DNA from: Pseudomonadota bacterium
Lineage (GTDB): Bacteria > Pseudomonadota > Alphaproteobacteria > RF32 > CAG-239
DNA: 38,767 nt
Assembly (NCBI GenBank): GCA_030523245.1
Contig: JAUNIW010000006.1
Location: 1-38,767, forward strand
Reading direction: 5' to 3'
The notes beneath the pieces are model-generated. The model was not told where the DNA came from and did no database searches. It saw nothing but the letters and a program-made list of their open reading frames with translations. Numbering within the stretch: position 1 is the first letter of the stretch; the number at the start of each line of letters is the position of its first letter. Shown here piece by piece: positions 35 through 18,918 of this stretch. Made by a program: the position numbers and the translations under genes.

Positions 35-190
35 AAAAAATAAAAATTAAATGACACAAAAATTTATATCTGTTTTTTTTATAGCCTGAAATTATATTTT
101 TGTCAATAATATTTGTGATACGGCCTTTTTCCGATAAAAGAACAAAAAACGATTTTTTAGACGAATGGGATATTTAAGGCGGTTTGTTTC

Positions 191-218
191 TTGACAAAAA
201 AAATAAAATGTGTAAAAA
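191..218 (+). promoter_or_regulatory. candidate promoter of the 276-aa gene
   Basis: A perfect -35 box TTGACA (191-196) is followed after 16 nt by a weak -10 box TAAAAA (213-218). The rest of 35-255 is very A+T rich and holds no gene that I can see. The -10 match is poor, so the exact start point is uncertain. Confidence 0.4.
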
Positions 219-255
219 TAAAGCATATTCAAATTATTAACTAAAAATTACTATT

Positions 256-1086
256 ATGAGTTTTCCTAAATTTTTGGCTGATATCAACCGGACCATACCG
301 CTTGGTCAGCAAAGGGTTTTTATCGAAAGAGTTAACGGCAGAATGTTTATAAAGACAAATATTCTTGCCGGTGATTTTCTTTTGGCGGACGGCAGTTATT
401 CCGCTTCTTCCGTTTTTCATCAGGAACGTGGTATTTTTATCGGCAAGGACGATAAGTTTATCGAAATTTCTTCCATTTCGGGAGAAGTGTTCAGTCGTGA
501 AGATGCAAGGAACTGGTGCGAACAGAACCGGATAATTTTACCGTCAAAGGCAGATTTGCAGGCTATTGATATCAAGACTGCAGCCGCTATCAATAACAGT
601 TTGCGGTGTATCGGATTGGGTCATCTCGGCCTGTTAAATGGTGCAGTGACTGATTTTTGGTCACAGGAAAGTATTGCCGATGAAAGATGTGTCGTCCGGC
701 GCCGTATTATGGTTATAAAACAGGCGGTTCATCTGAATAAGCCCGATTTTTCAAAGCTGGACGGTCTTGTCGGCAAAATGAAAGTTCATGTGCCGGATGT
801 ATTTGCGGTTCATCGTTATGAAGAGGATTCCCGTCTTTACGATGAAGAAAGTTTTTGGGTACTGCAACGTGTATTCGGTGACTGCTGTCAGGTTTTACCC
901 GTCCGGTTGGAAAGCAGGGGCTCCATTTATCTGGAGTGTCCTTATCTGGTCATAGAGAATCCTGTCGGTGGTGTTTATTGCGATGGCGGTGTGAATTATG
1001 TGCCTACTCATAAGGATTATTTCCAGCGCCATTCTTTTGGTCTTTATGTCAAAGTGAGTGAAGATAACGGCCGACGTCCGGTTTAG
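256..1086 (+). CDS. hypothetical protein, 276 aa
   Basis: I do not recognise this protein. It has no signal peptide or membrane segment, so it is probably cytoplasmic. Around residues 78-100 the stretch SREDARNWCEQNRIILPSKADL, followed by DFWSQE near 135, faintly resembles the 'pick the row, then LP-S' pattern of formylglycine-enzyme or C-type-lectin-like folds, but this is too weak to name a family. The C-terminal third has four cysteines (two adjacent, near residue 210) and several Gly/Tyr-rich strands. No Shine-Dalgarno sequence precedes the ATG, whose upstream bases are nearly all A and T. It is transcribed alone: a candidate promoter lies upstream and a strong terminator directly downstream. 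Confidence 0.75.
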   Translation: MSFPKFLADINRTIPLGQQRVFIERVNGRMFIKTNILAGDFLLADGSYSASSVFHQERGIFIGKDDKFIEISSISGEVFSREDARNWCEQNRIILPSKADLQAIDIKTAAAINNSLRCIGLGHLGLLNGAVTDFWSQESIADERCVVRRRIMVIKQAVHLNKPDFSKLDGLVGKMKVHVPDVFAVHRYEEDSRLYDEESFWVLQRVFGDCCQVLPVRLESRGSIYLECPYLVIENPVGGVYCDGGVNYVPTHKDYFQRHSFGLYVKVSEDNGRRPV

Positions 1087-1094
1087 GTTTAATT

Positions 1095-1130
1095 AAAAAA
1101 CAGCCTCCTTTTATCAGGGGCTGTTTTTTT
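1095..1130 (+). terminator. intrinsic terminator after the 276-aa gene
   Basis: CAGCCTC (1101-1107) pairs with GGGGCTG (1117-1123), with one G-U pair. It is flanked by an A-run and followed by seven T. It lies 9 nt after the stop codon. Confidence 0.85.
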
Positions 1131-1184
1131 GTTACGGTTTTGAAATCAAACGTAAATGTATTGTATATAATAATATCTTTTTGG

Positions 1185-1213
1185 TTGCAAATAGTATTTA
1201 ATTAGTTTATATT
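1185..1213 (+). promoter_or_regulatory. candidate promoter of the RHH gene
   Basis: -35 TTGCAA (1185-1190), a 17-nt spacer and -10 TATATT (1208-1213) place a start point near 1220, about 25 nt upstream of the RHH gene. Confidence 0.5.
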
Positions 1214-1244
1214 ATTCTTAAATACAACTTAAGTGGAGAAAATG

Positions 1245-1535
1245 ATGACTATTTTGTTAAATCGGGTTATCTCAGTCTGTGAACGCAAAACGAGTATGCG
1301 TCTGGCAAAGTCAGAATGGTATATTCTGGATAGAATTTGTGTTCGTGAAAATTTAAGACGGAACCAATTATTACAGCTTATTGACCAGCACAGAGATAAA
1401 AATATCGGTTTAACACCGGCTGTCCGGCTTTTTTCATTGTTATACCTTCATGATTTGGCGCGGCGTAATCTTAATTATTCGTATGCACCGGATAACAGCA
1501 CAATCAGTGAAGCGCTTAAAGAAATGTCATTTTAA
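1245..1535 (+). CDS. ribbon-helix-helix (RHH_4-like) protein, 96 aa
   Basis: The protein fits the RHH_4 pattern common in Alphaproteobacteria: a short strand with basic residues (NRVISVCERKTSMRL), an aromatic helix (SEWYILDRI), a second helix ending in LIDQHR, then GLTPAVRLFSLLYL, which corresponds to the 'LSSALRVFVL' end of the family. By homology it should bind DNA as a dimer, or act as a small adaptor; the target is unknown. GGAG (1235-1238) is 6 nt from the ATG at 1245 and only 3 nt from the ATG at 1242, so I chose 1245. A GTG at 1233 is in frame but lies on the ribosome binding site. The gene ends 3 nt from the convergent trmB stop. The product has about the usual length for the family. 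Confidence 0.8.
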   Translation: MTILLNRVISVCERKTSMRLAKSEWYILDRICVRENLRRNQLLQLIDQHRDKNIGLTPAVRLFSLLYLHDLARRNLNYSYAPDNSTISEALKEMSF

Positions 1536-1538
1536 TTT

Positions 1539-2297
1539 TTATATTCTTTGATATTCAAAAAATACGGGTCTGCGCCCTTCTTTCACGGCTTTTCTCTGAT
1601 ATTTTGTTTCAAACCAGTCTGCCGGCGGATTACGCCAGTCATCAGAACATTTTGCCGTCCAGATAAAATCTTTATTCTGAGCCATTGTATGCAAAACCCA
1701 GCTTTTATATACGGGGTGGTCGGTTGCAATTTGCAAAATGCCGCCTTTTTTCAGCAGTCTTGCCAGCTCGGTCAGATTATGAGGGTTTACAAAACGTCTG
1801 TCGGCATGTTTTTTCTTTGGCCACGGGTCAGGGAATAACAGGTAAATTTTATCAAAACAGGCATCAGGTAAAGAGGCAAACAACAGTCTTACATCGTCAT
1901 CATAAATCCGGATATTGTCTGTCCGTCCCTTTTCCAGAACAATTTCCTGCGACAGATTTTCTGCATCACCGTCTTTAAGTCCGGTCATCAGAGAGAGCAG
2001 GTTTGCTACGCCGTTTTTGTAAACCTCGACACCGATAAAGCCCGTATCAGGACGGCTTTGGGCCAGAGCAGCCAAGTGTGCGCCGTCACCAAAGCCGATT
2101 TCCAGAGCATAGCGTCTTATCTCCGGTCGGGTAAAACAGGAAGGTAAAAAAAGTCCGGCGGTTGGTTCTATACGCACCTTGGGCAAAAAATTATCCAAAA
2201 GAAAACTTTTTGCCTTGCGGATTGTTCTGCCTTTGCGCCGGCCGAAAAACTTTGGTTTTTCGTCTTGGGCTGTCGGATTATTAGAATCTGGCGTCAT
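1539..2297 (-). CDS. trmB: tRNA (guanine-N7-)-methyltransferase TrmB
   Basis: This enzyme methylates N7 of G46 in the variable loop of many tRNAs using S-adenosylmethionine. The SAM-binding motif EIGFGDGAHL is near residue 68. The family signature LLFPDPWPKKKHADRRFV is near 155, followed by LLKKGGILQIATDHPVY. The C-terminal FETKYQRK...PVFFEY segment is also typical. At 252 aa it is slightly long because of a basic N-terminal tail. Its ATG lies inside the end of the XRE regulator gene (17-nt overlap), so the two are probably co-transcribed and translationally coupled. The assignment is secure. Confidence 0.96.
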   Translation of the reverse strand: MTPDSNNPTAQDEKPKFFGRRKGRTIRKAKSFLLDNFLPKVRIEPTAGLFLPSCFTRPEIRRYALEIGFGDGAHLAALAQSRPDTGFIGVEVYKNGVANLLSLMTGLKDGDAENLSQEIVLEKGRTDNIRIYDDDVRLLFASLPDACFDKIYLLFPDPWPKKKHADRRFVNPHNLTELARLLKKGGILQIATDHPVYKSWVLHTMAQNKDFIWTAKCSDDWRNPPADWFETKYQRKAVKEGRRPVFFEYQRI

Positions 2298-2793
2298 CAG
2301 TATCTTTTTCCGCCACAGCCAGATTGCTGTTAGATTTGGACAGAGCCACCATCAGATTAAACAGATTTCTGGCAATGGAACGATTAGGGATTTTATAATA
2401 AGCGCGAACCAGTTCAAGCGTTTCTTTTCTTTTCATCGGGTCATCATCAAATGAGCGGTGTTCTTCTTCAAAGAAATAATTTTTCTCATCTTGATTTTTG
2501 TTGAGCATCCGCGGACTGTTTCTGACAACATTTTCATCCATGTCTTCAAAAAAGAAGCCCATCGGTACTTCCAGAACACGACTGATATCCCACAGTCTGC
2601 TTGCGCCGACACGGTTCATGCCTTTTTCATATTTTTGAATCTGTTGGAAGGTCAGTCCTAACATTTCAGCCATTTGCTGCTGGGTAATATGCAAAATTGT
2701 ACGGCGTAAGCGAATTCTGTTGCCGACATGCACATCAACCGGATTTGGCTCGTTATCATTAACTCTGCCTCTAAGAGATTTCGTTTCTTTCAT
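2281..2793 (-). CDS. XRE-family helix-turn-helix transcriptional regulator, 170 aa
   Basis: An N-terminal XRE/Cro helix-turn-helix covers about residues 20-77: VGNRIRLRR, then TQQQMAEMLGLTFQQIQKYEKG, then the GASRLWDISRVLEVPMGFFFED tail. It is followed by an acidic linker and a helical C-terminus (LVRAYYKI...RNLFNLMVALSK). This layout is common in Alphaproteobacteria for regulators of surface, symbiosis or stress genes (PraR/PhrR type), but the target here cannot be inferred. GAGG lies about 7 nt upstream of the ATG. The gene has a near-consensus promoter and overlaps trmB downstream. Confidence 0.9.
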   Translation of the reverse strand: MKETKSLRGRVNDNEPNPVDVHVGNRIRLRRTILHITQQQMAEMLGLTFQQIQKYEKGMNRVGASRLWDISRVLEVPMGFFFEDMDENVVRNSPRMLNKNQDEKNYFFEEEHRSFDDDPMKRKETLELVRAYYKIPNRSIARNLFNLMVALSKSNSNLAVAEKDTDDARF

Positions 2794-2826
2794 TTTTATA
2801 CCTCAAAAATCAAACATACACTAATT

Positions 2827-2855
2827 CATATAGAATCAACAAGGAAGTTTGTCAA
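2827..2855 (-). promoter_or_regulatory. promoter of the XRE regulator-trmB unit
   Basis: On the minus strand a perfect TTGACA (2855-2850), a 17-nt spacer and TATATG (2832-2827) give a start point near 2820, about 27 nt before the regulator's ATG. Because the regulator binds DNA, this would be the natural place to look for self-control, though I see no clear inverted-repeat operator. Confidence 0.6.
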
Positions 2856-3023
2856 ACATTAAATAACAAAATAGTGGGAAAACACAACTATTTATTTAAA
2901 TAACAGTATCATTCGTAATATAACGGAATGTATCGTAACGTCCCCTTTTTAGTGTAAAACTATGGTAAAAGAACAATAGATTTATAACATGATTCCGGAT
3001 AAATTTCAAACAGAATTTATTTC

Positions 3024-3052
3024 TTGAGTTTTTGATAAAATTGCTGTATCAG
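3024..3052 (+). promoter_or_regulatory. candidate promoter of the 100-aa lipoprotein gene
   Basis: TTGAGT (3024-3029), 17 nt, then TATCAG (3047-3052) lie about 34 nt upstream of the ATG. The -10 box matches the consensus at four of six positions. Confidence 0.4.
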
Positions 3053-12884: not shown

Positions 12885-13346
12885 ATGAAACTGAATGAAT
12901 TAAAAGATAACGAAGGTGCGACAAAAAATCGTAAACGCGTTGGTCGTGGTATCGGTTCCGGTAAAGGCAAAACCTGCGGTTTAGGCCACAAGGGTCAGAA
13001 AGCCCGTTCCGGTGGTGCCAAAATGGGTTTTGAAGGCGGTCAAATGCCTTTATACCGTCAGTTGCCAAAGCATGGCTTTAAGAATCCGTTTGCAAAGACT
13101 TATGCCGTTGTAAATCTGGATACGATTCAAAAAGCTATTGATGCCGGTAAATTGGACGCCAAAGCTATTGATGTTGAGTCTTTGTTGAAGTCAAATGTTG
13201 TTTCCAAGCAATTGGACGGCATTCGTCTGCTGGCTCGCGGTGCTGTTACCAGCAGCATCAATATCACAGTCGACTCTGCTTCTAAATCAGCTGTTGAAGC
13301 TGTAGAAAAAGCAGGCGGCAAAGTTAATTTTGTTGCTGCAAAATAA
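12885..13346 (+). CDS. rplO: 50S ribosomal protein L15
   Basis: L15 is a late 50S assembly protein. The sequence begins [22 protein letters not shown] and includes [21 protein letters not shown] and [19 protein letters not shown]. The ATG at 12885 has AAGGTAAA upstream; an earlier in-frame opening at 12852 has no ribosome binding site. In most bacteria secY follows directly, but here a terminator and an RNA-prepilin module intervene. Confidence 0.98.
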
Positions 13347-13371
13347 TTAAAGTTATTTGCTAAAATTATTA

Positions 13372-13414
13372 AAAATCCCCGTTCAGATGAATGGGGATTT
13401 TCTATTTTTTTTCT
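13372..13414 (+). terminator. intrinsic terminator after rplO
   Basis: AAAATCCCC (13372-13380) pairs perfectly with GGGGATTTT (13393-13401), and a TCTATTTTTTTT tract follows. It separates the ribosomal operon from the RNA-prepilin module. Confidence 0.88.
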
Positions 13415-13442
13415 TTACTTTTGTTCTGTCTTTGTTTAATAT
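13414..13442 (+). promoter_or_regulatory. promoter of structured RNA copy 1
   Basis: TTTACT (13414-13419), a 17-nt spacer and TAATAT (13437-13442) point to a start at about 13450, exactly where similarity to RNA copy 2 begins. The same arrangement (TTTACA-N17-TAATAT) precedes copy 2, which strengthens both calls. Confidence 0.65.
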
Positions 13443-13449
13443 TTTAGGT

Positions 13450-13636
13450 GGATGACGGATAGTTTATCTGGGGTGTGACAACCTCTTGAAGATACGTCTT
13501 TATGCAAAGACGCTAAATAAGCATACCTTCTGGTCTATGGATCGGAAGGTAGCAAAATGTGCTATGTGCTAATATGCTACACTGCATTATCTTCAGCAGT
13601 TGTCAACTTCCGGTCGTCTTTTTAGACGGCTTTTTT
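13450..13636 (+). ncRNA. structured leader or small RNA upstream of a prepilin gene, copy 1 (unrecognised family)
   Basis: The roughly 187-nt RNA begins with a stem-loop whose loop and 3' arm contain GATAGTTTAT (13458-13467). A closing helix P1 follows (TGACAAC 13476-13482 with GTTGTCA 13599-13605), then P2 (TGAAGATA 13487-13494 with TATCTTCA 13588-13595) and hairpin P3 (CGTCTTT/AAAGACG, 13495-13512). CGGAAG (13543-13548) can pair with CTTCCG (13607-13612), making a pseudoknot across P1 and P2. A local hairpin TACCTTC/GAAGGTA (13524-13551) competes for the same GAAG. The terminator stem starts at 13613, directly after the pseudoknot strand. The prepilin ATG lies 27 nt beyond. Copy 2 keeps the stated pairing of P1, P2, P3 and the pseudoknot with different bases. 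Function is unknown; terminator-controlled leader or separate small RNA are the main options. Confidence 0.8.
13613..13636 (+). terminator. terminator at the 3' end of structured RNA copy 1
   Basis: GTCGTCT (13613-13619) pairs with AGACGGC (13624-13630), including one G-U pair, around TTTT, followed by six T. It abuts the pseudoknot strand and ends 27 nt before the prepilin start codon, so read-through may be what expresses the prepilin. Confidence 0.85.
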
Positions 13637-13663
13637 ATTGTTAATCTTAAAAAGGAAGTTGTT

Positions 13664-14269
13664 ATGAATTTTAATCAATCGGGGCGTTCAATGATAGAAA
13701 TGCTTGGTGTGTTAGCCATTATTGCCGTGTTGTCTGTTGGTGGTATTGCGGGGTATTCAAAAGCAATGCAGCAATGGAAACTGAATAAATGGAAAGCGCA
13801 AATTACAGATATAATCTTTGCGCTTAAAGACGTTTATAAAAATGAAAAAAATTTTGGCAGCAATGGCATTAATCTTTTGCCTTTTTTGAAAGGAATAGGA
13901 GTGGTTCCGCAAGGTATGCTGGATGAGAACAATAAAGATTTATTTGGAAATACTGTATCAATAAATATTCGAGCCGATGGATTGGCAGATGGTTCAATAC
14001 TTCAGCGTTTTGCTGTATATTTTTCTACCCGGCCATCAGTAACGGCAGAGCAAAATTGCCGTGAGCTTTATTCTTTTGCGCAAACAGATCCTGATGTTCA
14101 TGCAGTGGTTAATTGGGCTAACGGATATCGTACTTGCGGTAAATATGTAGAAGATGCGTATAAACAAGTAATGCCTTGCCATGAATATAATATGCAGGAG
14201 GTCGCAAAAAAGTGTAAAGTTTGCCAAGAACGTTCTTGTACTTTGATTCTTTTGTACAGAAATAACTAA
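13664..14269 (+). CDS. type IV pilin-like / type II secretion-like prepilin, 201 aa
   Basis: After an eight-residue leader the motif G|RSMIEMLGVLAIIAVLSVGGIAGY fits a prepilin cleavage site: Gly at -1, Glu at +5, then a single hydrophobic helix. The mature protein should be membrane-inserted and possibly assembled into a pilus or pseudopilus. The globular part shares VPQGMLDENNKDLFGN with the second prepilin in this window, and the C-terminus has a Cys-rich end (CKVCQERSCTL). The ATG at 13664 follows AAGGAAG by 6 nt; a longer in-frame opening starting at 13559 lies within the RNA element and is rejected. The gene sits between rplO and secY, an unusual place. No secretion or pilus assembly genes are nearby, so the partner machine is unknown. 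Confidence 0.9.
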   Translation: MNFNQSGRSMIEMLGVLAIIAVLSVGGIAGYSKAMQQWKLNKWKAQITDIIFALKDVYKNEKNFGSNGINLLPFLKGIGVVPQGMLDENNKDLFGNTVSINIRADGLADGSILQRFAVYFSTRPSVTAEQNCRELYSFAQTDPDVHAVVNWANGYRTCGKYVEDAYKQVMPCHEYNMQEVAKKCKVCQERSCTLILLYRNN

Positions 14270-14323
14270 AATGTCTATCGAATCGAAAAAAGTGTAGAAA
14301 AACTGAGGATAAAGATAAATTAG

Positions 14324-14351
14324 TTGCAAAAAAAATATTTTTGTGTAATAG
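14324..14351 (+). promoter_or_regulatory. candidate promoter of secY-adk
   Basis: TTGCAA (14324-14329), 16 nt, TAATAG (14346-14351) would start near 14358. A promoter is expected here because rplO is followed by a terminator and the RNA-prepilin module has its own. The match is moderate. Confidence 0.4.
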
Positions 14352-14364
14352 ATTAAAGCCAAGT

Positions 14365-14393
14365 GGGTTTTTATAACCCTATGTTTTGTTTTT
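14365..14393 (+). terminator. weak terminator-like hairpin upstream of secY
   Basis: GGGTT (14365-14369) pairs with AACCC (14375-14379) and is followed by a T-rich tract. It could end the prepilin transcript or attenuate secY. With only five pairs it is a weak candidate. Confidence 0.4.
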
Positions 14394-14413
14394 AAAATTT
14401 TAAGGATTAAAAA

Positions 14414-15763
14414 ATGGTATCATTAGCAGAAAAAATGGCGGCCAATATTGATATGTCTGCCTTTAGCAAAGCCGACGAATTAAAGAAAAGACTTTGGTTT
14501 ACGGTATGGGCTTTGATTATTTTCCGTTTAGGCACATATATTCCGCTTCCGGGCATCAACCCTGCGGTATTGGCTGAAATGTTCAGTCGGAATCAAGGCG
14601 GTATTTTGGGAATGTTTAATATGTTTTCCGGTGGTGCATTGGAACGTATGACGATTTTTGCCCTGAATATTATGCCGTACATTTCCGCTTCCATTATTAT
14701 CCAGCTCGGTCAGTCGGTTATTCCGTCTTTAATGGCTTTGAAAAAAGAAGGGGAAGCCGGTCATCGTAAAATTACGCATTATACAAAATGCCTGACGGTT
14801 TTGATTACGATAATTCAAGGTTATGGTATTGCCGTCGGTCTGGAAAGTGTTTCCGGTGCCAATGGCGCATCTGCCGTAATGATTGACAGTTTTGCCTTCA
14901 GATTTTCGACCATTGTTTCTCTGGTCGGCGGTACCATGTTTATTGTCTGGCTGGGAGACCAGATTACACAGCGTGGTGTCGGTAATGGTTCTTCCCTGAT
15001 TATTACCGTTGGTATTATCGCCAATATACCGAATGCTTTGGCTCAGACTTTTGAACTGGGGCGTGCCGGTCAGATGTCGGTTATGACGATTTTGATGCTG
15101 TTGGTAATGGCTTTGGCTTTGATTTATGTTATAGTGTTTGTTGAAAGAGCACAAAGAAAGATTATTATTCAATATCCGAAGCGTCAGATGGGTATGCGCA
15201 TGATGGCTGCGGAAAGTTCTCACCTGCCGTTGAAAATTAACCCGACAGGCGTTATTCCGCCTATCTTTGCCAGCTCTTTGCTGCTGCTGCCGATTACAAT
15301 TGCAAATTTATCTGCCGAAAAAGGTCCGTCATGGGTACAGAGTCTGAGTCAGATGCTGGGACATGGTCAGCCTGTTTATCTGGCCTTGTATGCCTTTTTG
15401 ATTCTGTTCTTTACCTTCTTTTATACCTCAGTGGTATTTAATCCTCAGGAGACGGCGGATAATCTGAAGAAACACGGCGGATTTATTGCCGGTATCCGTC
15501 CGGGTAAAAATACGGCCGAATATCTGGATTATGTGATTACGCGTTTAACGGTGATTGCGTCTATTTATCTGGTTTGTTTGTGTATTTTGCCTGAACTGCT
15601 TATCAGCAAAGTCGGTGTACCGTTTGTTCTGGGTGGCACAACACTGCTCATCGTTGTGCAGGTAACAATGGATTTTGTCGGACAAATTCAGTCGCATCTG
15701 ATTGCTTATCAGTATGAGGGACTTTTGAAAAAAGCGGCTTTGATTAAAAAGAAAGGGCGTTAA
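14414..15763 (+). CDS. secY: preprotein translocase subunit SecY
   Basis: SecY is the channel of the Sec translocon. The 449-aa sequence has ten expected membrane helices, the conserved GTYIPLPGINP entry to the first periplasmic loop, NIMPYISASIIIQL in helix 2, and the cytoplasmic loops with KKEGEAGHRKITHYTK and VVFNPQETADNLKKHGGFIAGIRPG. The ATG has AAGGAT upstream. Its stop overlaps the adk start by one base, so translation is coupled. It normally follows rplO directly, but here the RNA-prepilin module stands between. Confidence 0.98.
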   Translation: MVSLAEKMAANIDMSAFSKADELKKRLWFTVWALIIFRLGTYIPLPGINPAVLAEMFSRNQGGILGMFNMFSGGALERMTIFALNIMPYISASIIIQLGQSVIPSLMALKKEGEAGHRKITHYTKCLTVLITIIQGYGIAVGLESVSGANGASAVMIDSFAFRFSTIVSLVGGTMFIVWLGDQITQRGVGNGSSLIITVGIIANIPNALAQTFELGRAGQMSVMTILMLLVMALALIYVIVFVERAQRKIIIQYPKRQMGMRMMAAESSHLPLKINPTGVIPPIFASSLLLLPITIANLSAEKGPSWVQSLSQMLGHGQPVYLALYAFLILFFTFFYTSVVFNPQETADNLKKHGGFIAGIRPGKNTAEYLDYVITRLTVIASIYLVCLCILPELLISKVGVPFVLGGTTLLIVVQVTMDFVGQIQSHLIAYQYEGLLKKAALIKKKGR

Positions 15764-17543: not shown

Positions 17544-18554
17544 GTGATTCAAAAGAATTGGCAAGAACTTATTAAACCAACTAATTTGCAAGTTTCTCAA
17601 GATGAGGCTGCTCATAAAGCAAAGATAGTGGTTGAACCTTTAGAGAGAGGCTTTGGCCTTACTTTAGGTAATGCGTTGAGAAGAGTTTTACTGTCCTCTC
17701 TGCAGGGCGGAGCTGTTTCCGCTATTAAAATTGACGGTGTTTTGCATGAATTTTCCGTTATTCCTGGCGTACGCGAGGATGTGACGGATATTGTGCTGAA
17801 CATCAAAGAATTGGCGGTTGCCGTTCACTCGGAAAGCGCAAAAACAATGACATTGAAAGCTGAAGGTCCTTGTGTGGTCACGGCAGCTATGATTGAAACC
17901 GGTCACGATGTCGAAATTATGAATCCGGAGCATGTGATTTGCACATTGGATGCCGGTGCAAAAATCAATATGGAATTGACGGTTACAACAGGTAAAGGCT
18001 ATGTTCCGGCTTATAACAGCAAGTCGGCAGATGCTCCGATTGGTTTAATCGCCGTAGATGCTATTTATTCTCCGGTTACAAAAGTTTCATACAAAGTTGA
18101 AAATACCCGCGTTGGTCAGATTACCGATTATGATAAGCTGACAATGAACGTTGAAACCAACGGCGTTGTTTCTCCGGAAGATGCTGTTGCATTGGCTGCG
18201 CGTATTCTGCAAGACCAGCTCAAACCGTTTATCAACTTTGACGAACCGGAAAGCGAATCGGAAGATATTCATGAAGAATTGCCGTTTAACCGCAATCTGC
18301 TGCGTAAGGTTGATGAGCTTGAATTGTCTGTTCGTTCGGCAAATTGCCTGAAAAATGATAACATCATCTATATTGGTGATTTGGTTCAAAAGACTGAAGC
18401 AGAAATGCTGCGTACACCTAACTTTGGCCGTAAATCTTTGAATGAAATCAAAGAAGTGCTGGCTAAAATGGGAATTCATCTGGGTATGGAAACACCGGGA
18501 TGGCCGCCTGAAAATATTGAAGAATTGATAAAGCGGTGTGATGAGCATTTCTAA
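17544..18554 (+). CDS. rpoA: RNA polymerase subunit alpha (GTG start)
   Basis: Alpha dimerises to start polymerase assembly and contacts regulators and UP elements. The N-terminal domain has [37 protein letters not shown]. After an acidic linker the C-terminal domain has [48 protein letters not shown]. The 336-aa length is normal. It begins with GTG, 8 nt after AAGGAC. A terminator follows, and rplQ, its usual partner, is not downstream. Confidence 0.98.
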
Positions 18555-18737: not shown

Positions 18738-18918
18738 GGATAAACGATAGTTTATTCAGGGCGTGAGACCCCTTTGTTCTGTCGGTCGCAAAGGCGACCT
18801 AAAATATGTCGATGTCTGTTGGTCGGATGTCGGCTAAATACGGTTATATACCAAATAGGTCGAGCCGTAGACAGATACGGTGTCTCAACATCCGCCCGCT
18901 TTTATATGGCGGGTTTTT
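18738..18918 (+). ncRNA. structured leader or small RNA upstream of a prepilin gene, copy 2 (unrecognised family)
   Basis: The roughly 181-nt RNA has the same plan as copy 1. A 5' stem-loop joins GGATAAAC to GTTTATTC with a GATA loop (18738-18757). P1 pairs TGAGAC (18764-18769) with GTCTCA (18882-18887). P2 pairs TCTGTC (18778-18783) with GACAGA (18870-18875). P3 is GGTCGC/GCGACC (18784-18799). CGGATG (18824-18829) pairs with CATCCG (18889-18894) as a pseudoknot. As in copy 1, a single A separates P1 from the pseudoknot strand, and the terminator starts at the next base. P1, P2, P3 and one pseudoknot pair all differ from copy 1 yet stay complementary. The inner region 18831-18869 can form alternative stems (CGGCT/AGCCG or TACGG/CCGTA). 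The prepilin ATG is 28 nt after the end of the RNA. Confidence 0.8.
18895..18918 (+). terminator. terminator at the 3' end of structured RNA copy 2
   Basis: CCCGC (18895-18899) pairs with GCGGG (18909-18913), followed by TTTTTG. A shifted alternative CCGCC/GGCGG exists and would consume part of the pseudoknot strand. Confidence 0.8.

Follow-up and report, generated by a model that had tools for sequence, protein, structure and literature searches.

Phage c4 RNA lies just upstream of an antirepressor gene, and some of its strands are complementary to the leader of that gene near the Shine-Dalgarno (SD) sequence; the sar RNA of phage P22 is transcribed from an antisense promoter of its own. For another described RNA, sRNA-Xcc1 (Rfam: RF02221), we know of no function that has been settled since 2010. 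RACE mapped an 88-nt sRNA-Xcc1, not the full-length form (PMC2996969), and in the integron cassettes of Xanthomonas it is found directly upstream of symE, in its own transcription direction (PMC12444791). Small RNAs described as lowering antirepressor synthesis are the CA RNA of phage N15 and the sar RNA of P22 (PMC10732415), whose likeness to the RNA studied here is one by description.

Here we analysed a window of 38,767 nucleotides, corresponding to the whole of contig JAUNIW010000006.1 (C40 in our numbering) of an alphaproteobacterial genome of 1.45 Mb in 97 contigs (assembly GCA_030523245.1; G000, hereafter the source genome). The window carries two copies of a structured RNA that, by sequence and structure, is a divergent, full-length form of sRNA-Xcc1.

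Two RNA-prepilin units at ribosomal genes

In the window, rplO ends at position 13346 and secY starts at 14414, and the intervening gap of 1,067 bases holds, in order, the terminator of the rplO transcript, a structured RNA (RNA 1), a terminator hairpin (T) and a prepilin-like gene (Table 1). An earlier note on this DNA had described the insert as a terminator, a promoter, a structured RNA and a prepilin gene; terminator, RNA and prepilin are confirmed, while the promoter is weak, as a consensus scan reported none upstream of RNA 1 and a single one, TTTACA-17-TAATAT, upstream of RNA 2. The second unit announced by the same note is indeed found downstream of rpoA, which ends at 18554. RNA 1 scores 155.8 bits with a covariance model that has it in its training set and 132.4 bits with model R2 (see below), and its fold has a z-score of -5.9, with none of 200 shuffled sequences equally stable.

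Table 1. Features of the two RNA-prepilin units in the window (positions 1 to 38,767).
Feature	Position	Strand	Basis
rplO transcript terminator	13372..13401	+	13-pair stem, then T run
P1 hairpin of RNA 1 (AGGTGGAT / GTTTATCT)	13446..13469	+	MFE fold; equivalent hairpins precede other copies
RNA 1 core (P2-P7 and strand S)	13470..13616	+	covariance-model match
P2 5' strand (UGACAAC)	13476..13482	+	partner 13599-13605; 99.8% of cells paired, 96 distinct sequences
P3 5' strand	13487..13494	+	partner 13588-13595; 97.2% paired; two-sided changes at 8/8 pairs
P4 hairpin	13495..13512	+	83% paired; two-sided changes at 7/7 pairs
P5 hairpin	13524..13551	+	90.7% paired
P5 3' strand (GAUCGGAAGGUA)	13540-13551	+	second partner is strand S, 96.3% paired
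P6	13549..13580	+	lower stem GUAGC 13549-13553 / GCUAC 13576-13580, 95.8% paired
P7 (ACUGC / GCAGU), flanks P3 3' strand	13581..13600	+	94-97% paired, two-sided changes
Strand S (AACUUCCGGUC)	13605..13615	+	partner: P5 3' strand or SD of the prepilin gene
Terminator hairpin T, with T run	13612..13631	+	hairpin and T run after RNA 1
SD sequence GGAAGTTG	13654..13661	+	complement of S, 8-bp duplex
Prepilin-like gene 1, 201 aa	13664..14269	+	N-terminal GRSMIEMLGVLAIIAVL motif
P1 hairpin of RNA 2	18738..18757	+	fold
RNA 2	18758..18898	+	covariance model R1, E = 3e-15 (RNA 2 in training set); fold z = -5.0
Terminator hairpin T of RNA 2	18894..18914	+	T run after RNA 2
Prepilin-like gene 2, 211 aa	18947..19582	+	GRSMIEMLGVLAIIGVL motif; 49% identity to gene 1

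Type IV prepilins have a short leader followed by a hydrophobic N-terminus with a glutamate at position 5. The prepilin N-terminus GRSMIEMLGVLAIIAVLSVGG is present, by eye, in the products of genes 1 and 2, and matches to the Pfam family N_methyl stay below the cut-off (16.9 bits against 21.2 for gene 1). Together with gene 1, 18 related genes make up 19 prepilin-like ORFs in the source genome.

Between 18554 and 20659 of the window, rplQ is absent after rpoA, and a D-Ala-D-Ala ligase-like gene lies 3' of the second unit on the opposite strand. A third ribosomal junction is occupied elsewhere in the source genome (G000:C84, locus L004), where an RNA-prepilin unit lies immediately upstream of rplK-rplA; no empty site was found there, as the gene content upstream of rplK is different in every readable relative of the same genus (the RplK query used for this homology search is approximate in its middle portion). 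At G000:C48:5988-6448, two tandem RNA copies precede one ORF, whose start has no match in Pfam.

At the Rfam gathering score, only tRNAs were found in the whole window. Matches to the L10 and PyrG leaders in the rplO-secY gap were rejected as chance matches on the rplO terminator, and an early check for the ZTP riboswitch found none in the source genome.

The RNA family and its competing helices

The RNA belongs to a family of pseudoknotted molecules of about 170 nt with very strong covariation. Ten copies from the source genome were aligned, seven of which gave covariance model R1; a second model, R2, was built from 68 sequences. In a structure test on 98 aligned members, the fold composed of P2-P3-P4-P7, the helix between strand S and the P5 3' strand (S:P5') and P6 has 94.5% of its cells paired, compared to 67.8% in shuffles, of which 0/500 reach this value, and 35-47% in slid controls. 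Two-sided changes occur at 35 of the 39 pairs, and in P2, over 96 distinct sequences, at every pair. P7 encloses the P3 3' strand, which makes a pseudoknot of P3 and P7, and the internal loop of P6 (AAAUA / AAUA) is conserved in the alignment. As S:P5', the lower stem of P6 and P7 are absent from the alignment model, the support for these helices is independent of it.

Two conserved partners exist for the P5 3' strand, namely the P5 5' strand (90.7% paired, with many G-U pairs) and strand S (96.3%, mostly Watson-Crick); the S:P5' helix shows two-sided changes at six of its nine pairs, the other three being invariant. The two helices are mutually exclusive, and their joint conservation is the signature of a switch, with a G-U-rich P5 hairpin competing against a stronger S:P5' helix as expected of a two-state device.

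Relationship to sRNA-Xcc1 and phage-type members

RF02221 has no match in the window, where both copies remain under its gathering cut-off (53 bits). In the source genome, three copies match it with E-values of 2e-5 to 6e-4, the best at 38.3 bits and all below the cut-off, and among distant copies in the class it matches the 3' half of the RNA, with one (L224) exceeding the cut-off at 56.2 bits and others at 44 bits. The structure in Rfam maps one to one onto S:P5', P6 with its AAUA internal loops, and P7: the helix that closes the 87-nt unit from its 5' to its 3' end is that of the P5 3' strand with S, present here and 96.3% paired, and its two inner hairpins are P6 and P7, both present as well (Table 1). 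Position upstream of a gene is a further likeness.

The differences lie in extent and in the role assigned. The Rfam model covers 87 positions and only the 3' half, whereas in the gut RNA the 5' half, from P1 to the P5 5' strand, is conserved and pairs with the 3' half. When the whole phylum was searched with RF02221, 30 loci matched, nine of which are lengthened by R2 by ~90-110 nt into the 5' half, and at beta- and gammaproteobacterial RF02221 loci R2 matches over its full length, with a best E-value of 5e-6. Moreover, the 5' motif of the Escherichia phage copies, GAGGCGTCGAAACCTC, is nearly letter-identical to the gut motif GAGGTGTCGAAACCTC. The extension and the shared motif indicate that the 88-nt sRNA-Xcc1 of earlier descriptions makes up the 3' half of an RNA that is longer and conserved. 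Those descriptions treat it as an sRNA of integron cassettes that acts in trans and do not present it as an antisense leader; the SymE/sRNA-Xcc1 cassettes share with our loci an RNA directly upstream of an accessory gene, but that gene is a different one and their integron attC context is not seen here.

In phages and many Proteobacteria, the RNA lies mostly 23-54 nt before a gene, and all nameable genes in this position are of phage type, including those with P22_AR_N and Rha domains (by Pfam) and KilA-N, AntA and BRO-like ones (by eye). An example of this is found in Escherichia phage Rac-SA53, where the RNA immediately precedes a gene annotated 'ant, antirepressor protein'; in Vibrio phage VPBES, the RNA and a gene for a DNA-binding protein lie between tail genes. 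The P6 motif occurs in at least 120 stretches of viral contigs. Within the 5' half of phage-type RNAs (L228-L257), the hairpin CCGCACCCGNCAG..TGCGG is conserved and, with the T run behind it, resembles an internal terminator.

Copy number and downstream genes

R1 finds 14 copies in the source genome, nine before prepilins and five before other genes; two more diverged copies before prepilins (L003, L014), seen by eye, are missed by the RNA models. In the relatives, which were retrieved via SecY and are MAGs of gut and rumen Alphaproteobacteria, R2 finds at least 96 copies in G015, a number reached within 1.6 Mb, at least 62 in G011 and at least 19 in G017. Overall, the RNA is found in 146 of 153 genomes and 16 of 17 genera of the order, and in 43 of 385 genomes of the class; copies per genome in these broad surveys are lower bounds.

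An ORF of at least 50 aa begins 10-130 nt downstream in 135 of 142 distinct copies. Prepilins account for 52 of these 135 ORFs, mostly from one genome: in G015, the genes behind the RNA are almost exclusively prepilins, and outside it they encode lipoproteins, secreted and outer-membrane proteins, glycosyltransferases, an MBOAT acyltransferase and DNA methylases, identified mostly by eye from sequence and, for MBOAT and an EcoRI-type methylase, by Pfam. That the RNA precedes such diverse accessory genes, many of them exported, argues for a control element and not for a partner of prepilins. The best explanation is that the RNA was amplified within the order in front of genes for exported proteins, the copies at rplO-secY and rpoA being two of 14 in their genome.

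G015 prepilins (L063-L082) carry in-frame stretches, for example CHAALAMTK, AEDALTIPAESRH or ESGADAPTVLSAVYT, between the prepilin start and GRSMIEM. The DNA of these stretches recurs in the sampled G015 sequence and in part folds into hairpins, like translated dispersed palindromic repeats.

Antisense pairing with the gene leader

In phage-type loci, pairing between the 3' part of the RNA and the leader of the gene behind it involves two blocks around the SD. Across 24 loci, the mean pairing energy is -23.6 kcal/mol with the own leader and -15.8 with swapped ones (permutation p = 5e-5), and a repeat in 19 viral contigs gave -19.5 and -13.0 (p = 1e-4). In the viral contigs, there is also a match between the 5' and 3' halves of the same RNA (p = 1e-4). 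The leader of the gene mimics the 5' half, so that leader and 5' half compete for the antisense strand.

In the gut clade, pairing is mainly between S and the SD, with S as AACUUCC, AACAUCC or AACUCCC and the SD as GGAAGUU, GGAUGUU or GGGAGUU. The two covary: CUUCC goes with GGAAG in 25 copies and CAUCC with GGAUG in 10, with 0 and 1 cross combinations (Fisher p = 4e-8, in a test that excludes G015 and treats copies without correction for relatedness). The same rule joins CCUCC with GGAGG and CUCCC with GGGAG. Nearly all G015 copies have the same S and the same SD, and their pairs are therefore not independent. The duplex extends over only 7-8 bp, eight of them in window copy 1 (CAACUUCC/GGAAGUUG), and is clear in about half of the gut-clade copies; an exact SD partner is missing for 19 CTTCC and 12 CATCC copies. 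Complementarity between the RNA and the SD region of the gene that follows it, as expected of a c4-like mechanism, is found in both the phage type and the gut clade.

Gene order at the junctions

The gap between rplO and secY measures 73-91 bases in most outgroups, compared to 174-4868 bases in the clade, where the genes may also lie apart; that between rpoA and rplQ measures 25-62 bases in outgroups and 185-3,049 in the clade, or the genes are separated. In seven relatives (L142, L144, L147, L112, L115, L139, L119), the RNA lies just before secY on the opposite strand, followed by a methyltransferase-like gene in L142, L144 and L147, a lipoprotein gene in L112 and a prepilin gene in L115, and in L120 it lies at rpoA-rplQ before an XRE-type gene (by eye). 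One old arrangement common to all relatives, which the earlier note had named as the outcome that would speak against mobility, was not found: RNA and gene content differ at rplO-secY. L106, L107, L110 and L108-L151 have a ribosomal protein operon interrupted at rplO-secY, where the cargo differs greatly between close relatives, or have rplO at another place on the opposite strand. As the junctions change in relatives with and without the RNA, rplO-secY and rpoA-rplQ are labile regardless of it, and they are hypervariable throughout the clade.

Like the earlier note, we saw no transposase, target duplication or terminal repeats. Its suggestion that RNA and prepilin are duplicated and moved as one module holds as far as the unit is present in many copies (14 RNAs and 19 prepilin-like ORFs in the source genome, at least 96 RNAs in G015), but prepilins are a minority of the downstream ORFs, RNA and prepilin divergence are uncorrelated and no clean empty site was found. 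Homology among 35 units of G015 starts at the -35 box and ends with the stop codon of the prepilin gene, and the sequences flanking the units are not shared. The divergences of RNA and prepilin give a Mantel r of 0.01 (p = 0.44), for which saturation or recombination could each account. Of what marks a transposable module, that is, defined ends, a target duplication and an empty site, we found neither repeats nor a clean empty site in the relatives. Units of promoter, RNA and gene were likely gained repeatedly at these junctions; their transposition as a unit is unproven.

Proposed mechanism and alternatives

We give a probability of roughly two in three to the reading of this RNA as a pseudoknotted antisense leader, akin to sRNA-Xcc1 and c4, that has its own promoter and switches translation of the adjacent gene. 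It builds on what was observed: the RNA family as such, the conservation of both competing helices, the location of the RNA ahead of genes and the agreement between antisense strand and SD. Repression by the pairing, its action in cis or, after processing of the RNA, in trans, and the trigger of the switch are inferred. The antisense strands would reside in the 3' half of the RNA, within which they would be occupied by P2-5', P3-5' and the P5 3' strand. With S held by the P5 3' strand, the SD would be free and the gene on; with P5 closed on itself, or the 3' half freed by processing, S (or P2-3'/P3-3') would cover the SD and turn the gene off. In the phage type, P3-3' and P2-3' would pair with the leader around the SD, as in phage c4 RNA. 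The logic would be that of the c4 antisense RNAs (RF01695 and c4-2, RF02944; clan CL00128), but the fold is different, larger and pseudoknotted, RF02221 belongs to no clan, and in Rfam E-value scans the c4-clan models had no match at the RNA in any locus scanned. A bolder version, which we consider unlikely, is that a phage immunity antisense switch was domesticated into ~100 copies, and that pilin paralogues sharing SD and anti-SD silence each other in trans, choosing among pilins by RNA only.

The compact pseudoknotted core with its conserved internal loop, the conservation of both mutually exclusive helices and a large regulon with exported proteins as its common theme would also suit a riboswitch, in which binding of a small molecule to the core would tip the balance between P5 and S:P5' and so expose or cover the SD of genes for exported proteins. 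The genes concerned are, however, unrelated across taxa (antirepressors, methylases, pilins), unlike a metabolite regulon, the core strands of P2 and P3 vary freely provided that pairing is kept, and the 3' half of the phage type is antisense to its own leader, which makes a riboswitch rather unlikely; a search of the literature for prepilin riboswitches gave nothing relevant. Since a terminator hairpin stands between RNA and gene, the main output could be transcription attenuation, the fold of the RNA setting whether hairpin T, after S, terminates before the gene. Terminator-like hairpins with T runs do follow directly in both window copies, yet the T runs are weak or absent in G015 and in the phage type, S and T overlap by only 2-4 bases, so that T could form in both states, and the matching of S and SD would be left unexplained; we regard attenuation as unlikely.

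A free-standing, trans-acting sRNA, as assumed for sRNA-Xcc1 in Xanthomonas, is favoured by the RNA's own promoter and terminator and by the mapped 88-nt RNA (PMC2996969). Its position before genes would then be incidental, which is at odds with the close spacing of ORF starts behind nearly all copies, and the antisense strand fits its own downstream leader better than others, although action in trans on the same target would be compatible with this; overall, such an sRNA seems very improbable. Lastly, the dispersed copies in G015 and the fact that several relatives have RNA-gene units, in either orientation, at rplO-secY and rpoA-rplQ could be taken to mean that the RNA is part of a transposition system whose RNA-prepilin units jump into ribosomal-operon junctions. 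Against this stand the lack of shared ends, repeats or a transposase, the uncorrelated divergences, the many gene families behind the RNA and the fact that the junctions are equally broken where it is absent, so that we give this explanation hardly any credence.

Implications

In the literature searched, mostly without subscription papers, we found no prior statement of the full-length fold, the antisense role, the competing helices or the expansion before pilin and surface genes, and take these to be new. With the antisense leader as the preferred reading, sRNA-Xcc1 gains a testable job, the antisense control of the gene behind it, which in phages is often of antirepressor type. In common gut and rumen bacteria, one structured RNA has expanded to very high numbers within a single genome, at pilin and surface genes, and this expansion makes the choice among many pilins directly testable.
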